A stretch of 64,000 nt of DNA from Coprinus comatus (lineage: Eukaryota; Basidiomycota; Agaricomycetes; Agaricales; Agaricaceae). The number at the start of each line of letters is the position of its first letter. Position 1 is the stretch's first letter. The position numbers and the translations under genes are program-made. The notes under the pieces were generated by a model. That model saw only the letters and a program-made list of their open reading frames with translations. It ran no database searches and had not been told where the DNA came from. The stretch is from contig JAWPGT010000002.1 in the NCBI GenBank assembly GCA_034638255.1, positions 372,001-436,000 of the forward strand, in the 5' to 3' direction. This document shows, piece after piece, positions 14,134 through 30,431 of the stretch.

Positions 14134-17100
14134 TCATCTGCGAGGAACGTCCTTTTTTTGTTTTTGTTTTTGACCATTAGATATATGAACAGAGATAGGG
14201 TAACACAACTTACGGATATGATTCATAATCATTACGAACAGCATGTACCATCCATTCTTCATCTGTACCAGGTGGTAAACCTTGTCCACCTGCAAGACTA
14301 AGTACTACTGGAAGTAATACAAGTCCATGTAAAGCTCCGGAAATGATTAATGTCAACCACATTCGGAAGTAATAAATCTATTACTGAGTTTTAGTAATTT
14401 ATTTTTTCGAAAAGGGAAAGAAATAGTGAAGGGAGATGTAATACAAACCTCGAGCAGTTTAGAACGTGTTAAAGCCAATACGGACATTCCAATAAGTTTT
14501 GTCAACGTGATACCAGATAGAACCTTTAAACACATAAGCAAAAAAAAAAAAAAAAGAGACGGGGAAAACTAGAATTACTTACTGAAGGTCCAACATCAAC
14601 AAGAGCAGCAAGTACTCTATCATCCCTTCCTTTCTGTCCTTCAACTTGTCCAACACCAATAGGTCCACCATCAATCGCCAAACTACCTTGATTCATAAAA
14701 GCTCTAGCAACATGAGCACAAAATTCCACAGCAATACCCAACGAAATCACAAGATTAACCAAACTAATCGCATTCAAGCTAATTCCCCATAACGGCATAA
14801 CTCCCATAACAGTAACAACTGTTAAAGCTACGACTGTAGTAACAATTGTAGCTGTATGTAAAGAACCAAGAAGAATCGAGTTAACAATTAGGACTGAAGC
14901 AAGTCCTAATCCTAAAACTTCTTGTGTTATTCCAATTATATGAGCATATTGATCAAAGAAAACATAAAACAGAGAATAAGGGAATACTTCTGTTCCAGTT
15001 TCTTTTGAAATTTCATCAGCTATACGATTAGCCGCCGCCAAAGCATTAATAAAATCATTTTGAGATTTGAGTGGTGTATGGAAAGTTCTGAAATGTGATG
15101 CTTCAACTTGACTAAAATCATCATTAACAGAAAGTGCTTGTCCAAAAGCAGTTTTTCCAGCCAATGTACAATCCGCATTTGTTGGTGAATTTAACCAATG
15201 TTCAAGATATTTCATGAATTCTTCGTTTTCAGGTAATCCATCCATAGTAATGTTCCATCCAGGCTCATGATCTTCGTAACATGGTTTACAACGTGGCGAT
15301 GATCTAGGACAAAATCCTGGTGGTCCTCGTTTTTTGACAAGGCAACATTCATCATTAACTGGATTTAACCATCCGAGGAAGTTGTCTATCCATGATGCGG
15401 CAGGTTGATTGATGAATGAAGTTTCGGGTCGTTTACGTTCGGCTTCTAGACGATTGGCGATTGAAACGTCCATGCATGTTGAGAAACGACCACAAAGAGC
15501 TTGTTGTCCTTGACGTTCTTTGACATCCACATTCTTTGCAACAAAGTAGACAGGGGGTCCAATGTCCAGATAGGCGTCAACGTGGTCAAAGTAAGGAACA
15601 AGGTAGGAGTCGGAAGGTAAAGCCAAACGTTGATCTACAAAAGGACTCACATAAATCACCTAAGCTTAATATGGAGGTAAAATAAAGAGGCTTACCAAGA
15701 CCGAGTTCGACATGTTGCATAGAGATAATAGAAGCCACAAAAGTTCCAAGGAAAATGATTATCACAACCGCCTTGACCACAGGTTTCAAAAGGAACGGAG
15801 CATAATATCGACGAATGAATCGCGCCATGTGTCCGATACCAATACCATTGCCACTCGTTTCTGATAAAACAATACGAGATGGCAGTTGAATGCAAGGGAA
15901 GCAGTCGACACGACTAGCCTATAGCACATAAAGTAATTAACTTATTGCCCAACGGTATAACAAAGATACTCACTTCAGTCCTTTTTAGATCCAATAGCAA
16001 AGCACTAATGAACACCGTCACTTGCAATATAGCGTTGATCAATACGCTTCCCGCAGCATACAGCGCAAAGTTACGTACAGCGGGCATGGGCACCAGAGCA
16101 CCCAATGCAAACGCTGTTGTTTCCGTGATAGTACTCAACAAAATCGAAGGTCCCATCTTAGCCAAGGTACGAGCGACTCTTTCTTCGGCAGAGAAGTAGA
16201 GTGGAAGGGAGGTATCATCCACATCAGCATGGGTAGAGTCAAAAGGTGAACGGTGAGATTGTGTTGGCGACATAGGAGCACCGTAACCACCATGTGTACT
16301 GAGTGTTGCATTTGGTCCATGTAAGGCATTTTGCCTATCGAGTTCGTGGACAAGAATGAAAACATTGTCCACTCCGACTGCAAGGACCAGGAATGGAATG
16401 ACTTCGGCAATGATGAGAGTGACTTTGACACCCAACAATGAGAAGAATCCAACGGTGCTTGAAATGGAGAGGAGGACCAAAACAATACTAAAAAATCCAA
16501 GCACCACTTTCGAGTTTACAAAAAGACTGCGAGAAGATGACGCTTCGCTGCATTTGAATAGTCCAGGGAAATTGCGAATCCATCGTGTTAATGATGATAT
16601 GCCACTGACATCGTCCCTTGCAGCAGTCCCGCTGCCAAGAGTCAAAGAAACGTAGAGGAACATAGCCAAGTATGATAGCACGACAATGCGGACGTCCGTG
16701 TTAGTGCTCTTGTTTAATTCCTCTTCAAGAGACACTCCAGTGGAGAAAACAACAGACAGCCCAACTTCTTCAGATTCTTGGCTGACCTTCATGAGGTACT
16801 CCCGCACGGCCGTCTCCCATTCAAGAACAATGGCTTGTTTGTCTGCATCCAAAGAGTCAGAGATGACGAAAGTCACGACAAGTGCCTCCGCTTTCACAAA
16901 GTCTTTATGACCATTCTCATCTAAAGGAACTCCACCCAAGACAAATTGAGGCTCAAGCGGTTGTTCAAAGTCGGGTAGACAATCAATGGGATTCCATGCG
17001 CAGTCTTCAAGATGTTCGGCCCATGTGTCCCGATCATAATCCTCCAAACCATCAGCAAACCATGCAGTTACAGATTGCACTACGCACGATCCGCGAGGCC

Positions 17101-18581
17101 CAGCTGGTTTAAAACACACATCATCAAGTGTATATCCATTGGGTGACTGCAAGCTTCTCATTCCATCCTCTATTGCAAACCAATATTTAAGACGATCCCA
17201 ATTAAGAACAGGACCTTTGTCTCCGACGTGGATGGAAGTTCCTTGGGTTTCATTACCAGAATCTAAACTTTGTGGAAGAGCAGTAACAAACATCTGTTCT
17301 GTCTTGTAGAAAGGACCAAAGTGGTTGTCAAAGTACTCCTTCTGAAGCCGGCTCTCGGAGTCGGGTGCGACCCATAATCGAACAGGATCTGTCTCCACCG
17401 TAAACTTCTTCCACCCAAGATTCAACAATCCAACAGCTACGAACACTACGCAAAGCATGACCCATGGGTTCATCGCTGCGACTAAGCCCAGCTTATAGAA
17501 GGCTCGACGAAGAATATTGTTGAGGCGATATTGACGAGGTTGAACGGTTTCACTTGGGTCTAATAAAGCTGCACCTCGACCTAGAGTACGAGATTCGGAT
17601 TGTGCTCCTATAGAATCCTCTTCGAGATACTGCGACAGAGATCCGGCACCAACAAGACTGCGAGCACGGATTCTAGGAGATGTAGTATCTTCTGCGAGAG
17701 CGACACGTTCGTAGCTCCTTTCGCGACGGATGCGACGGAAACTAGAGATGGAGTATCCGGTCAAAAACCCAAGAACAGCCAAACCATAGGCGATTGAAAG
17801 AATGAAAGATAAACAGGATATTGAACCAACAACACATGACGGCCCAGTGTCCGGTAAAGGGACAGGAGGTAATGTAGGGCAGATATTTGGACAGTCGATG
17901 CATGTACATCGACTTGATAAGTCGCTGTCATAGCAGTTTCTTGGAGGGGCGTTATAAGGGGTTATTTCAGAGGGTGAGGTGTTGGGGAAGTTGATCTGGA
18001 AGGGGCTTCCGAGAGGCTTTACATCACCAAGAAACTTGAAGAATGCACGATAATCTTTGGCACCTCCACCAATAAAGTCCATCGCGTAGCCATTGGTCGC
18101 ACCAAATTGGACATCCTTGCAACTATCATAGAAACCCGTTCCGAAGGATTCAGCTACGAAGAAGTCGGCAGACTTTACTGCGTTCGAATCCTGAGTTGCT
18201 GTGACGTTCACGAATTCGGCTTGTTGAGGAGAACATGTGAATGAGCAAAAGAATGATCTGAAATTATTTCTACAAGCAGGGCAAGATGCAATTAGTGCTT
18301 CAACTTGCACAAAGTTGGCTTTCAGCGCGGCAACTTGGTCGATGCTACAGCAAACTGGTCCATCTGCAAATTCCACTCCACATACTTCAGTAAGCAAAGA
18401 GTGTGCATGACTACCCTCAAGCTGACGCGTATATCGTAAACATGGTACTTCCTGTGACGAATGGGAAGATACCGACCTGTTGCGGGGGTCCATCATATGC
18501 ACATGGCAAGGGTTTGCCTCCATTAGTGCCACATTGGCTATGCATAGAGCATTTCCCTGTACTTGGTAAGTTGTTGCTCAT
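14134..18581 (-). CDS. NCR1: NPC1-type sterol transporter (Niemann-Pick C1 / Ncr1)
   Basis: Seven exons on the minus strand (18581-18477, 18421-15974, 15918-15696, 15634-14583, 14523-14449, 14377-14214, 14137-14134) sum to 4071 nt, 1356 residues. The N-terminal sterol-binding domain is Cys-rich (GKCSMHSQCG, AYDGPPQQ, CSFTCSPQQAEFVNVTAT). A membrane span, a large luminal loop and the sterol-sensing domain follow (LGVKVTLIIAEVIPFLVLAV, GVDNVFILVHELDRQN, GPSILLSTITETTAFALG). A second luminal loop and a second five-span block end in FRMWLTLIISGALHGL. NPC1 takes sterol from NPC2 and moves it into the vacuolar/late endosomal membrane. The chosen ATG gives no obvious signal peptide, so an upstream exon may be missing. 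The last exon adds only the final codon and stop and is uncertain. Confidence 0.93.
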
Positions 18582-23611: not shown

Positions 23612-24205
23612 TCATGAAGCCTTCGGGAATAACACTCCCTCATCAACTGCATCTTTCCTGTTCTTCTGAAGAATTTTGCTTGTCACTTCCAAGGTCGCGT
23701 ATCCAGGTAGCGGTTGACCGGTTGGGGGTAGTGCTTCAACGCCATAAAGAGCCTCAATAACTTGTCTTTCTCTCCCGATTATAGATCCACTCCACGAATT
23801 TTCCTTGTACATTTCGGCATAATGTGTTGTTTGATTGGCTCTGTCAAAGCTCCAGGGGCTCATTTTGGGTGCAGAACGTTGGTGAGCCAGAAGTCTGTCA
23901 TAGGCTTCGTGGCGAATACGGTTCGCGGACCTGGAAAGGTCTGTGTTTTCAAGGAAAGCATCATCAATTCGCTGTAGGAGGTTTTCGGGTGTGATGAAGT
24001 CGTCTGTTTGGTGGTAGAGAGATACAAGAGAGCGTAGTTTCTGCGTGGGGAGGAGGGGTTGGGTCTTCGGGTCGACTTTGGGCGTGCGTCCTTTGCGGCG
24101 AGAAGGAGCTGGGACCTCAATATCGACGTCTCTGCGAGCCACGCTCGTCGCAAAAGTACGCGAGAGACGGGCAGGGAGTAGACGGGCGGTAGTGGTCAAC
24201 GACAT
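23612..24205 (-). CDS. predicted mitochondrial protein, unknown
   Basis: Uninterrupted ORF of 197 residues on the minus strand. The N-terminus (LTTTARLLPARLSRTFATSV) is rich in Arg, Ser, Thr and Ala without acids, with an Arg-rich step after it, as in a mitochondrial targeting peptide. The remainder is soluble and charged, with LVSLYHQTDDFITPENLLQR, MSPWSFDRANQTTHYAEMY and GQPLPGYATLEV. It looks like a mitoribosomal or respiratory-assembly protein in composition and size, but I do not recognise the family and assign no function. It is the last ordinary gene before the inverted-repeat region. Confidence 0.72.
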   Translation of the reverse strand: MSLTTTARLLPARLSRTFATSVARRDVDIEVPAPSRRKGRTPKVDPKTQPLLPTQKLRSLVSLYHQTDDFITPENLLQRIDDAFLENTDLSRSANRIRHEAYDRLLAHQRSAPKMSPWSFDRANQTTHYAEMYKENSWSGSIIGRERQVIEALYGVEALPPTGQPLPGYATLEVTSKILQKNRKDAVDEGVLFPKAS

Positions 24206-24450
24206 GGCTGGTCGCTATTTCTCAAAAATCCCGACGCGTCCATTCCGAGTGTCACACACAGTCACATCAAACCTACTTTAATACAGTGTCACACTATCTA
24301 CTCCTCGGAAAAGGGTCACAAGTACTTCATCAGCATCTCTGAAAGTACCAAGATACTAAGTAGAAGGCTTAGTTTATTGGCGCCTCAGCATCACTGCTGC
24401 CATATTCAATCCATCATTAGCTCCAGAATACGAATCAATTTCATACATGG

Positions 24451-25265
24451 CTAGGCTATCTACTCCTTGCTCGGGTGCGTAAAAAAACCCAGTGGGAAAA
24501 AGCTACCGGCAGGCACAAACGATTGTAGACTACAGACTATGTACCAAAGAAAAGAAAAGAAAAGATTTCCAAAGTTCTGCAAAGATGTCGTTAGTTAGGT
24601 GAGTTGATACTCAAGAGTACTCATTGGACGATATCAGGAATTTGAAGCCATTGTCGAGGGTTCGGAGTAGACCTGTGGATGAGAACGTCAGCCAGTAACC
24701 TAGTGAGAGAGAGACCTTGGACGAACCATGTGTATTATCAAGCCCCGCTCCAGTCCCAATGACCACCTCATGAGAGCCTAACTGCGCCCTCCCTTCTTAA
24801 TCCACGTTAGCAGATCCTACGCCCTGAGAGAGCAACCCATCACGGTCTTCCCCCCCTCTCGATGTGCAACCTCGACTTGCCCATTTCTGGACTGGAGGAC
24901 CTGCACAAAGAGAATACTTCCGGACACGCCGGACCCAGCGAAGGATCCAACGGCCATGTAGGCTCAAGTAGTTCATCCAGGAAGACGTGAGGGTGATGAA
25001 GCTTCTCGGCCACCAGTTCCGGATAATCCACCTTCGGCAAATACATCGAGGTTGTCGGTTGGCTGAGGATAAGAAGAGTTGGCCAGAAGTAATGTATGAG
25101 GAGGGATGAGCGGACTGACATTGTGGTCAAAGGTCAAGAGGTTTGAGGGCATCTTTCGTAGGTGCGCCGACTTAAATATGCCAGTCCATGGTTTGGGTTT
25201 ATTTGATTTTTGAGGCTGACATACCCTGATATTGGAAAGCAAGTGAGACAACTAATTATAGCTCT
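24451..25265 (+). repeat. left arm of large inverted repeat
   Basis: This segment is the reverse complement of 27797-28610. Two long overlapping ORFs in different frames are residue-for-residue identical in both arms, so the arms are near-identical at nucleotide level. It includes an AAAAG short tandem run near 24547-24567. Outer divergence begins next to CTAGG at 24451; the inner end is at GCTCT near 25265. Confidence 0.9.
24840..25121 (-). CDS. uncertain ORF in left arm, reading outward
   Basis: 93-residue ORF from the ATG at 25121, with a hydrophobic signal-like N-terminus (SSLLIHYFWPTLLILS) and no recognised domain. The same DNA is open in other frames, one of which carries GSFAGSGVSGSILFVQVLQS. 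An intron-like CTAAC...AAG signal follows it. This could be part of a spliced gene, or not coding at all. An identical copy lies in the right arm. Confidence 0.25.
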   Translation of the reverse strand: MSVRSSLLIHYFWPTLLILSQPTTSMYLPKVDYPELVAEKLHHPHVFLDELLEPTWPLDPSLGPACPEVFSLCRSSSPEMGKSRLHIERGGRP

Positions 25266-25916
25266 AGCGTCATCGTTTCATTGTTACAAAGCCAAGTGGC
25301 TCACACCATGGCCATCAACGAATCCTGGCATCATAACCACAAGATGTATTTCTAAGTTGAAATTGCTGAATCTCCTAATGAAGGAGGAGACTGTTCATTA
25401 ACTCCGCCACGTTGTAACGGGTAGATGACCTAATACGTCATCTGTTATGTTTCAATTTTTGAAAGTTTATTATTATTTGTCCAACGCCCTTTATAAGACG
25501 TTGGACCTAGTTACGATGTACTTAATTCTTACCTTTTTCGACTCTGAAATACAGAGACCGTGCAGAATCAGCTGCTGTTCGACTACGTGTAAGAATATCA
25601 CCTACTTGTAACCCTACGACCGGTTACACACGTACTTAACACTAGAAATATACATATGAATCAACTTGGTTTAGAGTATATGAAATCCGATGTCTCATAT
25701 CATGTATTAACCCTTCATTCCTGTTCTTTCATAACCAGTCTATACATGACCGAACGTTGGCTCGGTCTGTTTTGAATTTGACCTCCGTGGCTAACCTTCC
25801 AAATTTAGTAAGCCCTTTTCCTAAAATGGATTATGTTTATTCTTACAAGATAACGAGTTTGAACAATTATATAATCTCTCAATGAACATAGACTAGATAC
25901 TAGTATATTGAGGCAT
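25266..25916. other. unique inner segment, left
   Basis: AT-rich non-repeated DNA between the left arm and the 3' end of the glycopeptide gene; no exon or RNA gene recognised. Confidence 0.4.
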
Positions 25917-26772
25917 TCAACAGAACGTAACAGCAAGATTGACCTGGAGACAGATATTCTTAGAGAACCGTTAATTGTGGAGAAGAACCTTAGAACTTAC
26001 ATCATTAGTCTGGCAGGCGACTTGTACCCAGTAATCTGTAGGGGTATGGAACGCAGTGGGGCAGTTCGCGCTAGCGCCTTAGTTTTGATTAACGTGAGTA
26101 GAAGCAAATTTTATACTTTCAAAGGTTGGACTTACAATTGGCACCAGCCCCATCACAACCATTGTAGTAACTTCACCGCAAAAGAATTATTATTTTGAAC
26201 AAGGAAGAGTTTAGACTTTATAGTGCTCACCCGAATCCAGCAGGCTGAGAATACGCAAGACTAAACCACATATCAGTAAGTCATTGTGAACCATGTTCGA
26301 CAGTACCATGCTTACGGGGGAATCAAAGAGATATCAGCACTGGAACCACTTCCAGGGGTGGTTGGGTTGACCAGGGTGAGTTCAACAAGAGTACATCCAT
26401 CACCATTGAAACCGCAGCGACCTAATGGTTCCGGAATAGATAATCCAGTAGCCATTCATTGACTTCTGAAGCGTAGACACTAGTTATGATTACATACCAG
26501 TGTCGAGATAAGCAATGGCAGCACGAAGGGGGGCATTCACAGTATAATCTCCTCCAGTCGAGAGGATATTACCTCCTTGAATTAACCTTGGCTGTGAGGT
26601 GTGAAGCGGGGAGCCTGATTAGTTGTTTTGTACTTTGGAAAGTAATACCACTGCCGGCACTACATACAGTTCCGTAGCCACATCTATTATCAAAGTGGAC
26701 AGTGTGCCTCTCAGCGAGAACACCCATGGCACCAGCAAGGATAACCGTGAAGATAGTTGCGAGTTGATACAT
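25917..26772 (-). CDS. secreted 'glycopeptide'-family cysteine-rich protein
   Basis: Seven exons on the minus strand (26772-26668, 26591-26498, 26421-26316, 26260-26231, 26170-26136, 26077-26001, 25943-25917) sum to 474 nt, 157 residues; every junction has GT...AG and keeps frame. A signal peptide (LATIFTVILAGAMGVLA) is followed by HTVHFDNRCGYGT, GGNILSTGGDYTVNAPLRAA, CGFNGDGCTLVELTL, PGSGSSADISLIPP, YYNGCDGAGANC and a C-terminal QTNDVNLAVTFC. This is the layout of the small secreted proteins annotated as glycopeptide in many agaricomycete genomes, distantly thaumatin-like in the HTVxFxNxCGxGT start. The function is unknown; an extracellular or cell-wall role is likely. The gene is intact although it lies inside the inverted repeat. 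Confidence 0.85.
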
Positions 26773-26838
26773 ACTTAATGAATACTGCGGAAGATGGGTC
26801 AATTTGTTTATGGAGTCTGATGCTTAAACAGATACTAG

Positions 26839-26845
26839 TTTTATA
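26839..26845 (-). promoter_or_regulatory. TATA box of glycopeptide gene
   Basis: TATAAAA on the minus strand about 67 bp upstream of the ATG at 26772, a typical distance for regulated secreted-protein genes of this window. Confidence 0.5.
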
Positions 26846-27796
26846 CTTTTTGTAATTTGAAAAGTGAGGTAATATCAAGGTGCAAGGTGACTATACTTGG
26901 AGTGGTTTCGCACAACGGTGGTATCTGGATGCCGAGCATCGACCTCGACCAGTGTAGGCCGTATAGAAGTAATAGCCAGAGCATTGAAGCGAAAGACATA
27001 AATCCTTTTGGGTTGAACTTTCTATTCTTACCATCTGTACACCCAATGAAGCTCTCGAGTAGGAAATGTTAATGAGTATCGGAGACTCAGGAATAATAAA
27101 TAGGTCACTAAAGTCTTCCAATTGATTAGCGAAATAACCGGTACTGTACATTGGTCGGGTTGTCTATAAGTGTCTTACCCGCAGTTGATGTTCAAAAACC
27201 TTGAACCACTCAGAATCCCACAAGCACATGGTTTTCTTGGGACTCGGCATCATCATGCAGTACTATTACCGTCTGCATTCAAACGGTATCTAAATATAGT
27301 CGTCCTGCGGGCTGGTAAAGGCCGTATGCTCTCATGGCAGCTCACTACTATATAAATGGGTTCAGACTCGTTTGTAGCATTAATTAGGAACAGATAGCAT
27401 TCCTATCACATAAGACTTATTATATAAACTTGTCACAACTTTGTGATTTGAAGCCACATTTCGGATTAAGATATTCACTAACCTCGGACTTACTACAGGG
27501 GATAGATTTATTGCCTGGACTGTACAAAGTGGACTGTTGGTTCGAGAAGTATATTATCCTGCCATTCTTCGCGACTTGGATACAAATATCGTGGCACGGT
27601 TATAGTAGTGGAATATCAACAAACACACAGTTAGCGTTTAATTAACTGTAAAGACTGCAACACTTCTCAATCATAGCAAATAAGTATTACATTTACCGCA
27701 CAACTTAGTTCGAGAGGTACCAACCACGTCTTGTTTCAACATGAGATGACGCGCATAATTAATAAATTATGTGGCGGTCTTGGCTGGGCTATAATT
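26846..27796. other. unique inner segment, right
   Basis: No gene recognised. Next to the right arm the sequence CTATAATTAG is repeated (27790-27811); a TATATAAAT string occurs near 27349. Short ORFs have no protein-like features. Confidence 0.4.
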
Positions 27797-28610
27797 AGAG
27801 CTATAATTAGTTGTCTCACTTGCTTTCCAATATCAGGGTATGTCAGCCTCAAAAATCAAATAAACCCAAACCATGGACTGGCATATTTAAGTCGGCGCAC
27901 CTACGAAAGATGCCCTCAAACCTCTTGACCTTTGACCACAATGTCAGTCCGCTCATCCCTCCTCATACATTACTTCTGGCCAACTCTTCTTATCCTCAGC
28001 CAACCGACAACCTCGATGTATTTGCCGAAGGTGGATTATCCGGAACTGGTGGCCGAGAAGCTTCATCACCCTCACGTCTTCCTGGATGAACTACTTGAGC
28101 CTACATGGCCGTTGGATCCTTCGCTGGGTCCGGCGTGTCCGGAAGTATTCTCTTTGTGCAGGTCCTCCAGTCCAGAAATGGGCAAGTCGAGGTTGCACAT
28201 CGAGAGGGGGGGAAGACCGTGATGGGTTGCCTCTCAGGGCGTAGGATCTGCTAACGTGGATTAAGAAGGGAGGGCGCAGTTAGGCTCTCATGAGGTGGTC
28301 ATTGGGACTGGAGCGGGGCTTGATAATACACATGGTTCGTCCAAGGTCTCTCTCTCACTAGGTTACTGGCTGACGTTCTCATCCACAGGTCTACTCCGAA
28401 CCCTCGACAATGGCTTCAAATTCCTGATATCGTCCAATGAGTACTCTTGAGTATCAACTCACCTAACTAACGACATCTTTGCAGAACTTTGGAAATCTTT
28501 TCTTTTCTTTTCTTTGGTACATAGTCTGTAGTCTACAATCGTTTGTGCCTGCCGGTAGCTTTTTCCCACTGGGTTTTTTTACGCACCCGAGCAAGGAGTA
28601 GATAACCTAG
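27797..28610 (-). repeat. right arm of large inverted repeat
   Basis: Reverse complement of 24451-25265, from AGAGC at the inner end to CCTAG at the outer end. The outer tip differs from the left arm by one base within the last 11 bp, and flanking DNA diverges beyond it. Confidence 0.9.
27941..28222 (+). CDS. uncertain ORF in right arm, reading outward
   Basis: Identical to the left-arm ORF at 24840-25121 but on the opposite strand, so both read away from the central gene. A TATTTAAG string about 57 bp upstream could act as a TATA box. Coding status is as uncertain as for the left copy. Confidence 0.25.
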   Translation: MSVRSSLLIHYFWPTLLILSQPTTSMYLPKVDYPELVAEKLHHPHVFLDELLEPTWPLDPSLGPACPEVFSLCRSSSPEMGKSRLHIERGGRP

Positions 28611-28788
28611 TCTCCACAATAATGTATGAATATGTAGCACTCAATTACTGGTTCCATCGTACATTGAAAGTTTAAATCCATAAGATCATATTATTTTGAT
28701 GAGTTACTTTCTATTTCAGTATGCATGGTGATTAGATTCTATGGCAATCCAATATTGACAAACGTTTACACACTGGCATTGATCCTAC

Positions 28789-30431
<1,643 letters not shown>

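Follow-up and report, generated by a model that had tools for sequence, protein, structure and literature searches.

In the Saccharomyces 'flip/flop' region, inverted repeats are described, in the part of the account that we draw on, as continually homogenised and open to re-inversion (PMC9731477). The long inverted repeats of C. elegans are read, in the portion of that study considered here, as actively maintained across species (PMC1803023), and Helenus, a TRIM-type non-autonomous LTR element, is reported from some Agaricomycetes in the sections of the work that concern us (PMC10886601). Here, we describe a near-perfect inverted repeat around a single gene in a 64-kb window, by which we mean the whole stretch of DNA analysed (C2:372001-436000 of a 35.7-Mb assembly in 134 contigs). 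The explanation that we rank first, at about even chances, is that the two arms are older inverted copies of a dispersed repeat that were recently made identical by gene conversion.

The arms are reverse complements of one another except for one substitution (24456) and one single-base indel (24831), and they are separated by a spacer of 2529 bp; the claim in the earlier note of mirror-image arms of about 815 bp around 2.5 kb is thereby borne out. The same note had called the structure the only large repeat of its region, and in a self-BLAST of the whole 64-kb window it is indeed the sole repeat at E<=1e-5. Read in the same orientation, the tips are CTAGGCTATC for one arm and CTAGGTTATC for the other. 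The inner end of the right arm carries a 12-bp tandem duplication, TAATTATAGCTC followed by TAATTATAGCCC. The coordinates of all features are collected in Table 1.

Table 1 Features of the inverted repeat and positions of related copies
Feature	Position	Length	Strand	Remark
Left arm	24451-25266	816 bp	-	One copy of the dispersed ~0.85-kb unit
Right arm	27796-28610	815 bp	+	Second copy, opposite orientation, 2 differences from left arm
Tip core, left arm	24460-24521		-	Common to four loci downstream of retrotransposon pol
Tip core, right arm	28540-28601		+	Letters identical to left arm core
Solo LTR	25413-25628 (25408-25633 with flanks)	216 bp	.	TGTAAC...GTTACA ends, CACGT on both sides
Glycopeptide/Glp-like gene, seven exons	26772 to 25917	157 aa	-	Unique splice solution and relatives
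Exons of this gene	26772-26668, 26591-26498, 26421-26316, 26260-26231, 26170-26136, 26077-26001, 25943-25917		-	Stop included
Right spacer part	26773-27795	1023 bp	.	Only self-match in the genome
Other near-full-length units (ten)	C2:348 kb, C5:1000 kb, C24 (two), C52 (four), C127 (two)			
Part-units	C52:62304, C106, C53			

As for the setting, an open reading frame at 15917-18577 encodes Niemann-Pick C1 N-terminal, middle luminal and sterol-sensing domains, consistent with a housekeeping region. The right neighbour of the block (28789-29058, minus strand) is the C-terminal exon of a gene of the isocitrate/isopropylmalate dehydrogenase family, and for the left neighbour, on the minus strand at 23615-24214, neither a Pfam family nor a solved structure was matched.

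Assemblers are known to stumble over long inverted arms that are nearly identical, and one real arm might have been placed twice. The two arms nevertheless differ at two sites, the inner and outer sequence that each arm joins differs between them, and the right part of the spacer matched only itself genome-wide with a search tool that skips very common words, all of which argues against an assembly artefact, and we consider one very unlikely.

The arms are not confined to this locus. Searched against the genome, the left arm gave 27 matches, pieces included, and searches with the left arm and another copy identified at least 12 near-full-length units, that is, the two arms and at least ten others; these counts are lower bounds, as the searches score the best candidates only. 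Checking the arms against their own genome, as had been proposed earlier, thus uncovered a dispersed family. Because the match between units spans about 800-870 bp even where their surroundings otherwise differ, we regard the unit as discrete. In gap-free columns between left-arm positions 24457 and 25222, identity to the arms is 93% for the unit at C2:348 kb, 82% for the C5 unit and 63-64% for the other eight, while BLAST over aligned stretches gave 91% against C2:348 kb and 77-78% against C5. The alignment behind the identity and clustering values leaves aside L028 and L029, in which only the tip is present, and the part-unit at C52:62304 is in no alignment. The closest other inverted pairs of units lie 22 kb apart (on C127 and C52) and are 90% identical. 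The arm tips do share sequence, as noted earlier; what they share is the 3' terminus of the dispersed unit and not the end of a transposon. Units on C24, C52, C106, C53 and C127 lie partly inside large duplicated blocks. Several of these units (L020-L029) are in 5-9-kb blocks that are 94-99% identical and common to different contigs, and on C106 and C53 the block keeps the tip alone, the rest of the unit being missing.

The spacer combines parts of different history. CACGT flanks a solo LTR at 25408-25412 and 25629-25633; with its TG...CA ends, this 5-bp target duplication and many copies in the genome at 92-99% identity, the element is a solo LTR that has inserted between the left arm and the gene. 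Elsewhere in the genome, matches to the 2529-bp spacer are restricted to the LTR and the gene, and 26773-27795 has no match but itself. The order unit-then-gene recurs once, 48 kb leftward at C2:348325-350219, with one arm only and with 75% identity at the DNA level in the gene part. Because unit and gene recur there with a single arm, the left arm and the gene are an old association, and the second arm is an addition or a later neighbour.

For the enclosed gene, exactly one splice structure yields the 157-aa protein, with seven exons and six GT-AG introns (the splice script accepted GT-AG introns of 38-94 nt), in agreement with the intact seven-exon gene reported earlier. Its product is matched by 376 proteins at E<=1e-3, the best-scoring one at 73% identity over 98%, and shows full-length similarity to named members of the Glycopeptide/Glp-like family; among 120 listed of the 376 relatives, the names are glycopeptide, Glp-like protein, hypothetical protein or none, and the named ones are from what we take to be mushroom-type fungi (Agaricomycetes), which makes it very probable that the DNA analysed here also comes from such a fungus. 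Against Pfam, the product reached no family at its cut-off. Paralogues are indicated by exon matches at C2:349.4-350.2 kb and C9:833 kb, with a weaker resemblance at C3:926-927 kb. As judged from these relatives, the gene is an ordinary member of a widespread Glp-like family of mushroom-type fungi, and its earlier description as captured effector-like cargo gives way to membership in a common fungal protein family.

The 24451-28610 block has the long terminal inverted repeats of a foldback or long-TIR element and these enclose a gene, so that a non-autonomous 4.2-kb element with a captured gene deserves consideration. Such an element was expected to show short target duplications and multiple copies, and this genome offered neither: no 5-9-bp direct repeat was present at the block ends with shifts of up to 8 bp, and spacer searches found no second complete copy of the 4.2-kb block. 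Moreover, the 1023-bp right spacer part matched only itself, the arms occur as dispersed single units, and unit and gene exist elsewhere with one arm. Based on the target-site, copy-number and single-arm evidence, we reject an element with cargo, which we hold to be the least probable of the readings considered here.

We instead favour gene conversion. The arms are opposite-orientation copies of the ~0.85-kb unit, which is apparently non-coding; the left one forms an old pair with the glycopeptide gene, a pair likewise present 48 kb away, and a second, inverted unit lies on the far side of the gene. Conversion, in which repair synthesis copies one arm onto the other, would recently have made the central ~810 bp identical, and pairing of the arms could at times invert the 2.5-kb gene segment; the 12-bp tandem duplication at the inner end of the right arm may be the trace of a misaligned copying end. 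We infer the conversion itself, its direction and any flipping. We favour conversion because the arms differ at only 2 sites in 816 while the next relative is 93% identical with clustered differences, because sequence of the family seems to run on beyond the part that is identical, and because unit and gene recur with a single arm at C2:348-350 kb. Of the two ideas put forward in the earlier note, the inverted duplication kept identical by conversion fits this scheme, whereas the foldback or long-TIR element does not.

The main rival is a plain recent inverted duplication, in which one arm was copied once to the other side of the gene by template switch or break repair and has yet to diverge, with the similarities in the flanks arising by chance. 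We rank it second, as a serious contender somewhat short of even chances. The two differences in 816 positions and the paralogous block with one arm only are also what a single copying event would leave. If, on the other hand, the arms are older family members, family sequence should extend past the identical tract, and this was the rationale for comparing the flanks with the family and with random stretches. For the left inner flank, anchored, none of 1500 random stretches was as good against the C2:348-kb copy (157 of 1500 against C5). The right inner flank, anchored on the second tandem motif, was equalled by 5 and 3 of 1500 random stretches, which speaks against duplication; anchoring on the first motif gave 485 and 209 of 1500, and without an anchor the values were not significant (1055 and 410 of 2778), as duplication would have it. 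On the outer side, anchored against four references, the right flank was equalled by 15, 24, 178 and 231 of 1500 random stretches and the left flank by 39, 336, 434 and all 1500 of 1500. With six references together, the right outer flank resembled the family (187/20000), which again counts against duplication, and the left outer flank showed no family signal (5408/20000), which counts in its favour. In six leave-one-out controls, true family members reached 0 or 1 of 4000, far better than the outer flank of either arm. This pairwise test used six of the seven reference flanks extracted and was run after a profile search of the outer flanks, which reported neither flank. Homology past the identical tract is thus strong in one flank, weak in two and without signal in one. 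A duplication followed by a single flip of the gene segment would derive the family-like right outer and left inner flanks both from the original unit. The flank support for two older, converted copies is real but weak and uneven, and it separates conversion from duplication only weakly.

The arms also bear on exchange beyond the pair. Compared with the C2:348-kb copy (L017:4326-5099), their differences are clustered, with a 170-bp run without a substitution (0/2000 shuffles, gap columns excluded). Within this same run the arms differ from the C5 copy at 4-12 positions per 40 bp, and outside it some stretches differ from the C2:348-kb copy by up to ~25-30%. Clustered differences were also present in other family pairs (eight pairs tested). 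The patchy identity suggests a recent ectopic exchange between the arms in the window and the C2:348-kb locus.

What the unit is was approached from several sides. On the minus strand of the left arm, inspection by eye revealed a TATA-like box, a mostly conserved ATGTCAGT, two intron-like stretches in which the branch-point-like and CAG ends are conserved (also by eye), and a very conserved 3' tip. The sense direction would accordingly point outward, along the minus strand in the left arm and the plus strand in the right, with the promoter-like end facing the gene. An open reading frame of 97 codons exists in the arm; we rejected it as a protein gene, as it contains stops in the relatives at C2:348 kb, C5 and C52, and it gave no candidate in a protein search and no family match in Pfam. 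Indels between unit copies are often not multiples of three and break any common frame. A known RNA was likewise dismissed: Rfam gave no match, whether across the window at the gathering score or across 24300-28800 at E<=1. Neither the tip region of 96 nt nor another stretch within the arm folds better than shuffles (z 0.38 and -0.13). For a Helitron, with ends assigned by eye, the homology of the family extends beyond those ends. Because of the frame-breaking indels, the stops in relatives of the open reading frame and the lack of known relatives, the unit is probably non-coding or a decayed gene.

The tip of the unit has a wider distribution than the unit itself. When at most one mismatch was allowed, a 17-base tip piece was found at 18 places (13 exact and five with one mismatch), and with two mismatches at three more, compared with six matches at up to two mismatches for the same piece read backward. 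Units or part-units account for 14 of the 18 places; at the other four, on C4, C15, C26 and C40, an open frame ends roughly 80-110 bp upstream. A Pfam search of three of these loci detected a chromodomain in all three and an integrase zinc-binding domain in two, and the fourth, on C40, matches C15 at 98% identity around the core. On C26, the core comes after the end of pol and before a purine tract. Beyond this tract is a 303-bp sequence that has a second copy ~6.3 kb upstream at 99% identity; with LTR limits read by eye, the C26 core is thus placed between pol and a putative 3' LTR. The ~45-bp core of the arm tips also occurs in Ty3/gypsy chromodomain retrotransposon loci, after pol and before the 3' end (around 1490-1600 in L051-L054). 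A protein search for a reading frame across the tip core gave no candidate.

Two crossing short helices fit the core, with 98.7% of cells pairing in an alignment of 11 rows. Each helix contains one double change (A-U for G-C in the C5 copy, U-A for C-G in the window), a pattern reached by 9/500 shuffles, and each double change rests on one sequence. In slid versions of the helices, 1-66% of cells pair with 0 or 1 double change, although one such version comes near in covariation score (0.088 vs 0.099). The first core alignment comprised 16 of the 18 places, omitting the left arm and L026, whose letters are identical to kept rows; the 11-row alignment additionally omits L027, a duplicate of L020, and the four rows from retrotransposons, which the aligner had shifted one base out of register. 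By eye, these four rows are without the outermost pair of helix 1 and fit less well, and a pair of helix 2 is broken in L052; L025, which was kept, also breaks one. These data hint that the tip core may be a structured RNA (pseudoknot), which we offer as a lead only. A more far-reaching and, in our estimate, doubtful proposal is that the tips carry a small mobile RNA element, a ~60-nt pseudoknot present just downstream of Ty3/gypsy chromodomain pol and at the 3' end of the unit. Through it the transcript of the unit would be handled by the retrotransposon machinery or by a host factor, which would seed inverted repeats that later exchange sequence and can flip genes.

If conversion and flipping occur, the locus would be a compact case, from a mushroom-type fungus, of a dispersed repeat that turns a one-gene segment into an inversion-prone cassette, and PCR on populations could track both its orientation and the sequence of the arms. 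An RNA signal so far unrecognised could lie behind the core that the unit has in common with sequence downstream of retrotransposon pol. For now, the main lesson of the locus is one of caution: a gene between long inverted arms need not mean a transposon.

Compared with known systems, the arm unit resembles Helenus in being a small repeat linked to LTR retrotransposons; Helenus, in the passages considered here, has paired LTRs, PBS, PPT and 5-bp duplications, whereas the arm unit has only the tip core in common with retrotransposon loci (PMC10886601). With foldback transposons such as Tetris of Drosophila virilis, as far as the cited description goes, the block shares long terminal inverted repeats, but unlike them it has no target-site duplication, no second complete copy that we found, and arms that occur as single dispersed units (PMC4079207). 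The C. elegans repeats are similar in being long, inverted and nearly perfect; in the part of the report used here, they consist of gene pairs and intergenic sequence and were compared among related species, whereas our comparison is within one genome (PMC1803023). Among published systems, the Saccharomyces flip/flop region comes closest. As set out in the portion of that work on which we rely, it has 4-kb repeats that carry sporulation genes and enclose 24 kb with 15 genes, and inversion is shown in populations (PMC9731477), whereas here the arms are 0.8-kb copies of a dispersed, apparently non-coding unit, one gene is enclosed and inversion is proposed only. What the two have in common, on the same partial account, is near-identical inverted repeats around genes that are homogenised by recombination and between which orientation can flip (PMC9731477).
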